Shown here one piece after another: positions 41,480 through 43,277 of a stretch of DNA of 44,311 bases. Both the position numbers and the translations under genes were made by a program. The notes under the pieces are model-generated. The model was not told the origin of the DNA and made no database searches. It saw nothing but the letters and a program-made list of their open reading frames with translations. Every line of letters starts with the position of its first letter. Position 1 is the first letter of the stretch. This DNA is from an uncultured Clostridia bacterium (GTDB taxonomy: Bacteria > Bacillota > Clostridia > Christensenellales > Borkfalkiaceae): contig CANQQM010000007.1 in assembly GCA_947626005.1 (NCBI GenBank), forward strand, positions 1 to 44,311, in the 5' to 3' direction.

Positions 41480-42361
41480 ATGAGCAAACGATTCGATAAA
41501 ACCATCGGGATCCTCATCCTGATCTGCGTCTACCTCGGCGCGTTCGGCGTCGGGAGTGCGATCTATTATTTCCTTCCCCTTCCCTTCTGGCTCTCCCTCT
41601 TCCTCGCGGACGTCGCCGCGACCCTCTTCACCTTCGCCTTCAGCCTCATCTTCAGGAATGCCTCCGTCTACGACCCCTATTGGAGCGTTCAGCCCGTCCT
41701 CATCCTTGCCTCCTACGCCGTATTCGAGAAGATGAGCGTCGGCGCCTTCCTTGCCCTCGTCGCGGTGACCGTTTGGGGGATCCGCCTCACCGCAAATTGG
41801 GCGTACACTTTCCGCGGGATCGATTCGGAGGACTGGCGCTATACGATGCTCCGCGAAAAGACGGGGAAGTGGTACTTCCTCGTGAATTTGCTCGGGATCC
41901 ACCTCGTTCCGACGATCGTCGTGTACCTTTGCACCCTGCCCGCCGTCTTTACCTTCGTCTATGCCCCCGCCTTCAACCCGGGGAGCTCCGTCTTTTTCTC
42001 CGTTTCGCTGTTTGCCGTCCTCTGGCAGGGCACGGCGGACTGCCAGATGCACGCCTTCCGCCGACGCCGTACGGGCGGGTTCCTCCGCACGGGGCTTTGG
42101 CGGTATTCCCGCCATCCCAACTACCTCGGCGAGATCGTCATGTGGTGGGCGGTGGGACTTGCCGCGGTCTGCCTCATGCCCTCCCGCTGGTGGCTGCTTG
42201 CGGGCGCCGTCGCAAATTCCGCCCTCTTCCTCTTTGTGAGCATTCCGCTTGCCGACGGTCATCAGGCGCGGAAGGAGGGATTTGAGGCGTACCGTGCGGA
42301 GACGAGGCGGCTTCTGCCCATTCCCCGCTTCTGCCGCCCCAAAACGGAACCGAATAAATAA
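41480..42361 (+). CDS. DUF1295 (steroid reductase/ICMT-like) membrane protein
   Basis: A 293-residue protein with about seven membrane helices. The C-terminal block GLWRYSRHPNYLGEIVMWWAVGL is the hallmark of DUF1295 and of isoprenylcysteine methyltransferases, and probably binds NADPH or S-adenosylmethionine. The N-terminal half has the DPYWSVQP motif of DUF1295. It may reduce or methylate a membrane lipid; no substrate is known. ATG 41480 is preferred over an in-frame GTG at 41471; neither has a strong ribosome-binding site. Confidence 0.87.
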   Translation: MSKRFDKTIGILILICVYLGAFGVGSAIYYFLPLPFWLSLFLADVAATLFTFAFSLIFRNASVYDPYWSVQPVLILASYAVFEKMSVGAFLALVAVTVWGIRLTANWAYTFRGIDSEDWRYTMLREKTGKWYFLVNLLGIHLVPTIVVYLCTLPAVFTFVYAPAFNPGSSVFFSVSLFAVLWQGTADCQMHAFRRRRTGGFLRTGLWRYSRHPNYLGEIVMWWAVGLAAVCLMPSRWWLLAGAVANSALFLFVSIPLADGHQARKEGFEAYRAETRRLLPIPRFCRPKTEPNK

Positions 42362-42396
42362 TTCTGCCGAGTTTTGCTTTCCCCCTTGAAGAACGC

Positions 42397-42425
42397 TTTA
42401 CACGGCGAAAAAAATCGGATATAAT
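42397..42425 (+). promoter_or_regulatory. Promoter of the VUT transporter-SDR operon
   Basis: TTTACA (42397-42402), 17 bp, TATAAT (42420-42425). The transcript begins near 42432, directly at the structured leader. Confidence 0.78.
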
Positions 42426-42430
42426 ACCCT

Positions 42431-42517
42431 TTGCGCAAGATGTTCCTTGCCCAACCATCTCAGCGCAGTCCCGCCCCGCGGGATACGCACCTTCGTGCAA
42501 TAAAAAACAAGGAGGCT
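42431..42517 (+). promoter_or_regulatory. Candidate preQ1-type riboswitch
   Basis: The leader folds as a hairpin with arms TGCGC/GCGCA (42432-42436, 42463-42467) and AGATG/CATCT (42438-42442, 42456-42460). Its loop contains TTCCTTG (42443-42449), which can pair with CAAGGAG (42508-42514), i.e. with the ribosome-binding site itself, making a pseudoknot. An A-rich strand TAAAAAA (42501-42507) runs right before that segment, as in preQ1-I RNAs. Two small hairpins (42469-42483 and 42487-42498) are inserted between. The downstream gene is of the queuosine-precursor transporter family. Class assignment is uncertain. Confidence 0.6.
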
Positions 42518-42521
42518 TCGT

Positions 42522-43277
42522 ATGAAGCGCATCAAAACAATTTTTTCCGACTTTCTCGTCCTTCTCCGCTCTGTTCCGCCGCTTGCTTTTTCCTTCTTTC
42601 TTCTGTCCGTCTTTTCGATGAATCTGCTTGCGAACAAGAGCATCGACCTCCCCCTTTCGTGGCTTGCGCTCGACTGCGGCATCGTCGTCTCGTGGATCTC
42701 CTTCCTCTGCATGGACGTCCTCACCCGCCACTTCGGGCCCCGCGCCGCGACCGAGCTCTCGGTCTTTGCCGCGGCCGTCAACCTCGTCCTCTGCCTCATT
42801 CTCTACCTTTCGAGCCTCATTCCGGGCACATGGGGTGCGTTTTTCGACTTCGGAGAGCAGCCCGTCATCAACGACGCCCTCGATCGGACGGTGGGCGGAA
42901 CGTGGTATGTCGTGCTCGGGAGCACCCTTGCCTTCCTCGTCTCGGCGGCGGTCAACAACTTCACCAATTGGGGGGTGGGGAAGCTCTTCAAAAGGTCCCC
43001 GAACGGCTTCGGCGCGTATGCCTGCCGCACCTACCTTTCGACGGCGGTCGGGCAATTTACCGATAACATGGTATTCGCTTTTGTCGTCAGCCACTTCTTT
43101 TTCGGGTGGACCGCGGTGCAATGCGTGACCTGTGCCGCGACGGGTATGGTCGCCGAACTGCTCATCGAGGCGATCTTTTCCCCGATCGGCTTCCGCGTCG
43201 CCGAAGGATGGCGAAAACGCGGGGTCGGGCGCGAATATTTCGAACGCATTTCAAAAGCCGAGGAGGCCGCAGAATGA
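42522..43277 (+). CDS. VUT family transporter (queuosine-precursor type)
   Basis: A 251-residue protein with about six membrane helices. The stretch LALDCGIVVSWISFLCMDVLTRHFGPRAATELSVFA and the late TYLSTAVGQFTDNMVFAF match the VUT/YhhQ family (COG1738), known to import queuine or its precursors preQ0 and preQ1. AAGGAGG lies 6 nt before the ATG and is part of the pseudoknot in the leader. First gene of an operon with an SDR. Confidence 0.88.
   Translation: MKRIKTIFSDFLVLLRSVPPLAFSFFLLSVFSMNLLANKSIDLPLSWLALDCGIVVSWISFLCMDVLTRHFGPRAATELSVFAAAVNLVLCLILYLSSLIPGTWGAFFDFGEQPVINDALDRTVGGTWYVVLGSTLAFLVSAAVNNFTNWGVGKLFKRSPNGFGAYACRTYLSTAVGQFTDNMVFAFVVSHFFFGWTAVQCVTCAATGMVAELLIEAIFSPIGFRVAEGWRKRGVGREYFERISKAEEAAE

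Follow-up and report, generated by a model that had tools for sequence, protein, structure and literature searches.

A candidate class I preQ1 riboswitch with inserted hairpins ahead of a VUT transporter gene in an uncultured Clostridia bacterium

Background

Class I preQ1 riboswitches are among the smallest aptamers. A leader that seems to join their core to a sizeable structured insert raises the question of what kind of RNA it is and what the insert might do. Such a leader precedes a VUT transporter gene in the window considered here, i.e., the whole stretch of 44,311 nucleotides that was analyzed (contig CANQQM010000007.1 of assembly GCA_947626005.1), which comes from an uncultured Clostridia bacterium. 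The nearest named relatives, also 'uncultured Clostridia' metagenome-assembled genomes (MAGs), have isolate names beginning with Lapin, which point to the rabbit gut as the source.

In the portions of the published accounts available to us, class I RNAs of types I and III have UU following the 5' strand of stem P1, those of types II and III have AC in front of its 3' strand, and type I bears a UC mark. Type III has a variable linker between P1 and the A-run, and shortening this linker changes affinity by only about 1.1- to 4.2-fold. Class II possesses a helix, P4, that is extra to the pocket; its deletion has a minor effect on binding, and the kinetics depend critically on it. Class III RNAs are 100 nt long, with Shine-Dalgarno (SD) pairing far from the pocket and a second pseudoknot.

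Hairpins inserted between P1 and L3 of a class I RNA are not mentioned in the available parts of the family review or of the type III paper, where the linker is short or variable. No title or abstract opening in the literature searched reports a class I RNA with hairpins at this site, and an earlier description in the survey of McCown et al. (2014) is possible. A sequence-only reading of the window had proposed that the leader is a variant of preQ1-type riboswitches. Here, we examine this proposal by folding, comparison of related leaders and searches of related genomes.

Results

Anatomy of the leader

The region from the promoter to the end of the second gene contains the following features:

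42397..42425, plus strand: sigma-70-type promoter with TTTACA (42397-42402), a 17-nt spacer and TATAAT (42420-42425); 11 of 12 consensus matches
42432..42436, plus strand: 5' strand of the P1 extension, UGCGC, partner of 42463-42467; from folding and covariation
42438..42442, plus strand: 5' strand of the P1 core, AGAUG, partner of 42456-42460 (CAUCU); from folding and covariation
42443..42455, plus strand: loop L1, UUCCUUGCCCAAC, with a UU cap, the P2 5' strand CCUUG (42445-42449) and AC (42454-42455); conserved in aligned leaders
42456..42460, plus strand: 3' strand of the P1 core, CAUCU; from folding and covariation
42461..42462, plus strand: asymmetric internal loop, A42437 facing C42461 and A42462, which divides the P1 core from the extension; from folding
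42463..42467, plus strand: 3' strand of the P1 extension, GCGCA; from folding and covariation
42468..42484, plus strand: inserted hairpin H1; from folding and covariation
42487..42498, plus strand: inserted hairpin H2 (GCAC/GUGC); from folding, weaker in the model alignment
42499..42507, plus strand: A-rich L3, AAUAAAAAA, 9 nt, a length that recurs in relatives
42508..42514, plus strand: P2 3' strand CAAGGAG, predicted partner of L1; from sequence and duplex energy
42509..42515, plus strand: SD sequence AAGGAGG, 6 nt ahead of the start codon; from sequence
42522..43277, plus strand: VUT/YhhQ-family (QPTR, COG1738) queuosine-precursor transporter, 251 aa; from PF02592
43274..43915, plus strand: SDR-family oxidoreductase, its start overlapping the VUT stop; from sequence and neighborhood

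The 11/12 match of the strong promoter-like site (42397..42425) compares with a shuffle mean of 0.1, and look-alikes of TTTACA...TATAAT were seen by eye ahead of many relatives' leaders. Placed from this site, the transcript would start at about 42432. The whole predicted sensor element spans 84 nt (42432-42515).

As the sequence-only reading had described, a promoter-proximal stem-loop carries a loop complementary to the ribosome-binding site of the transporter gene over seven positions. UUCCUUG (42443-42449) can form seven pairs with CAAGGAG (42508-42514), the outermost being U-G, and the duplex program formed six of them at -7.2 kcal/mol. The A-run leading into the ribosome-binding-site strand is likewise there (UAAAAAA, 42501-42507), AAUAAAAAA being followed by CAAGGAGG, which contains the SD sequence, and the two small hairpins said to separate the stem from the A-run were recovered at 42468-42484 and 42487-42498. 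The description of the stem needs a correction: it is made up of a 5-bp core (AGAUG/CAUCU) plus an extension (UGCGC/GCGCA), one on either side of the asymmetric internal loop. By analogy with known class I RNAs, C42455 in L1 is expected to be the ligand-pairing base, and L3 is expected to sit in the minor groove of P1.

With seven upstream bases included, the nested fold had a z-score of -3.57 and none of 200 shuffles was as good; starting at 42432, the z-score was -2.72 and 3 of 200 shuffles were as good. The loop-SD match is modest by itself, since CCUUG arises in 2.1% of shuffles of the 13-nt loop. It stands above chance because it recurs in relatives.

The predicted fold of 42425-42530 also contains a small hairpin around the start codon, GCUUC-GUAU-GAAGC (42515-42528); GGAGGCUUC...AUGAAG is common to many relatives and absent from others. 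An intrinsic terminator was considered and rejected. No terminator-like site was found on the gene strand within 42300-42600, and the only one in this interval covers the start codon and is encoded on the minus strand.

The transporter, its neighbor and queuosine genes

The earlier naming of the downstream gene as a VUT transporter was borne out by a Pfam match to PF02592 (77.9 bits, cut-off 27.2). The NCBIfam model TIGR00697, 'queuosine precursor transporter', gave 40.1 bits, under its cut-off of 50.95. The contig ends shortly 3' of the VUT gene.

The SDR gene is probably the second gene of the VUT operon. Among loci with room downstream, a relative of it begins no more than about 150 nt from the expected VUT end in 36/39 with extended and 20/20 with compact leaders (the two leader forms are defined below), and in 6/6 of group c, 14/44 of group d and 2/3 of group e; the same holds for 15/16 duplicate or unsorted loci. 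NCBIfam matches of the protein are to generic SDR models and far below the cut-offs. We regard it as a candidate co-regulated queuosine-salvage enzyme.

The genome (a 1.37-Mb assembly in 57 contigs) contains Tgt, QueA and QueH, all on contig C2. QueF and QueG (DUF1730) had no match in this assembly, and these absences are tentative because it is 90.75% complete. QueC was not accepted: its two weak matches are proteins that we take, from their motifs, to be NadE- and ThiI-like. With Tgt, QueA and QueH present and a QueF match absent, the organism looks like a preQ1 salvager. In another genome of the same genus, a weak VUT-like match (G051:C43:10989-11318; 31% identity) contains four in-frame TGA codons; it may be a degenerate copy, or the match may be due to chance.

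Compact and extended leaders in relatives

A VUT homologue is encoded in 38 of 101 related genomes, a count that includes the genome of the window itself. For the comparison of leaders, 80 named loci were taken from 110 encoding a relative. A pattern made of P1, U-U/C, CUUG, an AAC-type end, P1', the A-run and CAAGGA gave 44 distinct leaders, and 62 once loci from the model search were added. They comprise 39 extended leaders (insert of at least 20 nt; window included) and 23 compact ones. In the 39 extended leaders, an insert of 27-73 nt, mostly structured, lies exactly between the P1 stem and the A-run; a short unstructured linker between P1 and L3 was found in the 23 compact leaders and in none of the extended ones, including the window. 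Because the pattern demanded AC, CUUG and CAAGGA, the constancy of these three among the 62 leaders is not independent evidence. Immediately before CUUG, 57 of the 62 leaders have C, four have A and one has U. Loop and tail are complementary, CUUG and CAAGGA being required by the pattern, and P2 does not covary; one of its strands is the nearly invariant SD sequence, where the covariation that the sequence-only reading asked for has no room to appear.

In compact leaders, UU follows the 5' strand of P1 and AC precedes its 3' strand, L3 is A-rich, and P2 would take in the SD sequence. One of them (L007), GGAUG UUCCUUGCCAAAC CAUCC C AAAAAAACAAGGAGG, reads as an ordinary class I aptamer. The window has UU at 42443-42444 and AC at 42454-42455, as in class I types II and III. 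The core recurs ahead of VUT genes with protein identity as low as 45%, and also in Coriobacteria MAGs. Together, the compact relatives with class I features, the sharing of their core by leaders with the insert, and the VUT context support, at the level of sequence, the earlier proposal of a preQ1-type riboswitch variant.

Insert size varies within the order. L140 (1501-1620) has a 73-nt insert with longer hairpins, and L189 and L190 have shorter inserts that appear, by eye, one-hairpin or unstructured.

Rfam searches and position of the insert

The preQ1-I model, RF00522, gave 12.7 bits on the window leader, in the wrong register (cut-off 39 bits), and its cut-off was reached nowhere in the window, nor in nine loci of relatives, nor in a set of 18 loci. 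At E up to 5, it matched 6 of the 18 loci (21.6-25.7 bits). It aligned in register in four of eight compact loci (22.9-25.7 bits, under the 39-bit cut-off); the other four, and all four extended loci examined, stayed unmatched at E up to 5. Neither the preQ1-II model (RF01054) nor the preQ1-III model (RF02680) matched the window leader (42350-42600; E up to 10) or the 18 relatives' loci (E up to 5). The Rfam check suggested earlier produced no hit at the cut-off for the window, and the in-register matches that it did yield were the below-cut-off alignments of four of the eight compact relatives.

RF00522 also missed, at E up to 10, the yhhQ leader of E. coli K-12, in which the linker published for the type III RNA used in experiments, GGUUAAUC, is present. 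Because this leader was missed too, an Rfam miss is weak evidence against class I. Likewise, since a variable linker is known for type III, the inserted helices bar the label 'typical member' and not 'class I-like'. Judged from the predicted fold, the insert occupies the position of the class II P4 helix and does not follow the class III layout, so that the earlier likening of the embedded hairpin to types II and III stands for the former and falls for the latter.

Covariation and folding of the insert

In a structure-free alignment of 26 extended rows, P1 and its extension scored 0.400, compared with 0.157 when shuffled (0/500 as high); 7 of 10 pairs showed changes on both sides, and slid registers reached at most 0.127. 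The alignment made with the covariance model R1 (44 matches, 39 distinct) leans towards its own model; over its 39 distinct rows the score was 0.513 versus 0.184 in shuffles (0/500), 16 of 19 pairs changed on both sides, and every slid version scored at most 0.143. Aligning the leaders of related genes, a check that had also been suggested, favored the nested helices, with covariation in P1, the extension and H1.

Within the R1 alignment, the P1 core of about 5 bp was paired in 99.5% of cells, with two of its five pairs changing on both sides and three invariant; the outer pair is AU in 24 and GC in 14 of the 39 distinct rows. The extension was paired in 91.6% of cells and H1 in 86.9%, and in each all five pairs had changes on both sides. 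H2 was paired in only 66.0% of cells, with both-side changes in four of four pairs.

Extended leaders were folded with P1 fixed and the loop and tail held single-stranded. Exactly two hairpins formed in 36 of 39 (one in two leaders, none in one). In 35 of 39, the window among them, the 3' side of the stem carried 1-4 unpaired nucleotides at a point 5-6 bp below the loop; three leaders had none there, and one had 31. Where at least one hairpin was present, the distance from the last hairpin to CAAGG was exactly 9 nt in 27 of 38 leaders. Taken singly, an extension of at least four pairs is common by chance (36/39 real leaders versus 67% of shuffles), and two hairpins were seen in 36/39 versus 11.8%. 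The combination occurred in 33/39 real leaders versus 4.5% of 3900 folds with a shuffled insert and 5' flank. The energy z-score was below -1 in 38 of 39 extended leaders.

History of the insert

A 67-row VUT tree, from which L034 and L035 were left out because of short reading frames, placed the 39 extended sequences and seven compact ones of the same genus in one group (support 99/88), within which the seven formed a clade of their own (98/90). Outside this group lay the remaining 14 compact forms, five of them from Coriobacteria MAGs and nine others. A single clade of all extended rows was not rejected (p-AU 0.118). The simplest reading, one gain of the insert and one later loss in the seven relatives, is the best and not the only history. 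Because the best tree takes two changes between the extended and compact states, the insert can apparently be lost.

Distribution across genomes

An R1 search of 396 genomes of the order matched 44, at one place each. Ten of the 44 matched sequences, including the window, had been used to train R1, and 34 had not. Insert length sorts the 44 into 23 extended and 21 compact forms. The core was visible in all 44, and a VUT gene lies downstream of every one. According to a script, the tail is at most 45 nt from the predicted start in 42 of 44, the predicted start being offset in L148 and L188.

The compact model R2, run against 391 genomes of the class, matched 19 places in 18 of them, L173 being one of the 19. 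Two of these places are VUT leaders already found (the window and G034). Seven (L155, L158, L165, L167, L168, L169 and L171) precede proteins that look QueT-like by eye, and Pfam confirmed QueT in all three that were submitted; at L165 the core is weak and lies 98 nt ahead of the QueT-like frame. The core is also carried by L156 and L160-L162. The contig of L160 ends too soon, and the other three have a radical SAM protein downstream. Two of these three proteins were searched and gave weak RaSEA matches, far below the cut-off; we infer that all three are QueL-like. QueL of C. difficile, in the accessible part of its description, is a lyase that gives preQ1 from queuine and is, with its partners, under a preQ1-I riboswitch. 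Places with neither the core nor a queuosine gene (L163, L164, L166, L170 and L172) were set aside, as were L175 and L176.

Five genomes of one genus, the G557 family, all have a queT-like leader with the same core. At the same insertion point, all five carry an inverted repeat whose sequence differs, and an unconstrained fold formed the hairpin in four, L168 being the exception. This hairpin is an insert in the switch of a different gene, and the queT leaders may have acquired it independently at the same site. Five queT leaders have the tail CAAGGGAG and the loop CUCUUG, which are compatible with pairing and not required by it.

Other leaders ahead of VUT

In 45 of 136 labelled loci, VUT is preceded by a very uniform leader, in which AAGCAG-UUCGGGUCCGAUAUC-CUGCUU runs into an A-rich tail and CCAAAGGAG. 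These loci lie between L061 and L118 (e.g., L072 and L080), and many are rumen MAGs. The leader bears the UC mark of class I type I, and the two loci examined with RF00522 (L072 and L080; E up to 5) gave no match. A related loop, UUCGGCCUCUAAAUC, is present in four loci. The group c leaders of sister genomes were considered as the same switch as that of the window and rejected, because they have the UC mark of type I. The VUT leader of sister genomes L026-L032, which differs from that of the window, has, by eye, a type I-like loop such as UUCGGAACCAUC, in which CCAUC could also pair with GGAUGG just 5' of a hairpin with a U-rich tail. This arrangement suggests transcriptional control of the same VUT gene in these genomes.

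Discussion

Proposed mechanism

We consider it probable (about 0.82) that the leader is a translational OFF switch of the class I preQ1 kind, with sequence features of types II and III and a structured insert. The ligand, the direction of switching, the pseudoknot and the role of the insert are parts of this riboswitch reading that are drawn from analogy. At low preQ1, P1, the extension, H1 and H2 would be folded and the SD sequence open, so that the transporter and the overlapping SDR would be made. At high preQ1, the ligand would pair with C42455 and be stacked between P1 and P2, the A-rich L3 would settle against the 5-bp P1 core, and the SD sequence would be locked away in P2 (CCUUG paired with CAAGG, up to seven pairs). 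The extension and the two hairpins would lie directly below the core, in the place taken by the short linker of class I and by P4 in class II. Because the insert leaves L3 at its normal 9-nt length, the pocket should be undisturbed; most likely, the insert would tune folding speed and stability, as P4 does for kinetics in class II.

Role of the insert

A variable linker at the same place in type III, whose shortening has, in the available part of that report, only the 1.1- to 4.2-fold effect on affinity, would suit an insert that is a passive ornament at a length-tolerant site, and so would the nesting of seven same-genus relatives without an insert among extended ones in the best tree. Such an insert, with no role in switching, is compatible with the main reading. 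We find it rather unlikely, given that pairing in the extension and H1 survives many compensatory changes and that the two-hairpin form (36/39) and the 9-nt L3 (27/38) are kept. The compensatory changes and the kept two-hairpin form indicate selection for structure, though not for a switching role. Tentatively, and at somewhat under even odds, we propose that class I has a fourth structural type, the extended RNAs, in which the class I pocket is combined with a selected domain, the P1 extension and two hairpins, at the P4 position that sets kinetics or regulatory range.

Ligand and class

The substrates of COG1738 transporters differ: in the published accounts, as far as available, the E. coli member imports preQ1 and preQ0, and that of Chlamydia imports queuine. 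The same fold and mechanism might accordingly serve another queuosine precursor, i.e., preQ0, queuine or queuosine, but this is improbable. As in the preQ1-binding types II and III, AC precedes the P1 3' strand and the tail is A-rich; with Tgt, QueA and QueH and without a QueF match, preQ1, not preQ0, would be the directly useful import; and the presence of one motif at VUT, queT and a QueL-like gene suggests preQ1 as the common product.

The embedded hairpin between the stem and the pseudoknot strand is class II topology, with P4 extra to the pocket, and might place the leader in class II or III, or in a separate class that converged on SD sequestration. We consider this very unlikely: RF01054 and RF02680 were silent in the window leader (E up to 10) and in the 18 relatives' loci (E up to 5), and compact relatives have the same core without the insert, four of eight tested aligning to RF00522 in register. 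Just as remote is a ligand-free structured leader (for RNA stability or as a thermosensor) with an accidental loop-SD match, to which the GC-rich hairpins and the 2.1% frequency of the match in loop shuffles would be agreeable, but not the recurrence of the core down to 45% VUT identity and in Coriobacteria MAGs, at VUT in 44/44 order-wide matches and elsewhere at queT and a QueL-like gene.

Implications

If the extended RNAs are indeed a fourth type, class I and class II topologies would be the ends of one continuum and not separate inventions. For the same gene in related genomes, the leaders form a natural series of none, one and two hairpins at one fixed point by the pocket, which is a ready experiment on embedded helices in SD-sequestering pseudoknots. 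These leaders of salvage genes in gut Clostridia lie beyond the reach of the current Rfam model. In addition, a conserved SDR oxidoreductase is linked to the uptake of queuosine precursors.

Comparison with known preQ1 riboswitches

The leader resembles preQ1-III (RF02680) in its multiple helices, similar size (84 nt compared with 100 nt) and predicted loop-SD pairing. It differs in that a single pseudoknot would both form the pocket and hold the SD sequence, and in having no RF02680 match. With preQ1-II (RF01054) it shares a hairpin between the 3' strand of the stem and the 3' strand of the pseudoknot, and an SD sequence within the pseudoknot, which is predicted for the window leader; preQ1-II exerts translational control, which is also proposed for the window leader. 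Unlike preQ1-II, the window has a class I-like core, two hairpins in place of the one P4, a P1 extension, and no RF01054 match.

Its closest counterparts are class I types II and III (T. tengcongensis and E. coli yhhQ; RF00522), with which it has in common a short P1, the UU and AC marks, an A-rich L3 and, by prediction, a P2 that includes the SD sequence. Compared with these RNAs, P1 is extended below a bulge, a covarying and normally two-hairpin domain replaces the short linker, P2 would be capable of 5-7 standard pairs, and the score lies below the RF00522 cut-off. Like the window leader, the E. coli type III RNA stands ahead of a yhhQ/VUT gene, and its linker from P1 to the A-run is variable. 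The tail of the window leader, ACAAGG, is presumably identical to that of the Thermoanaerobacter tengcongensis RNA.
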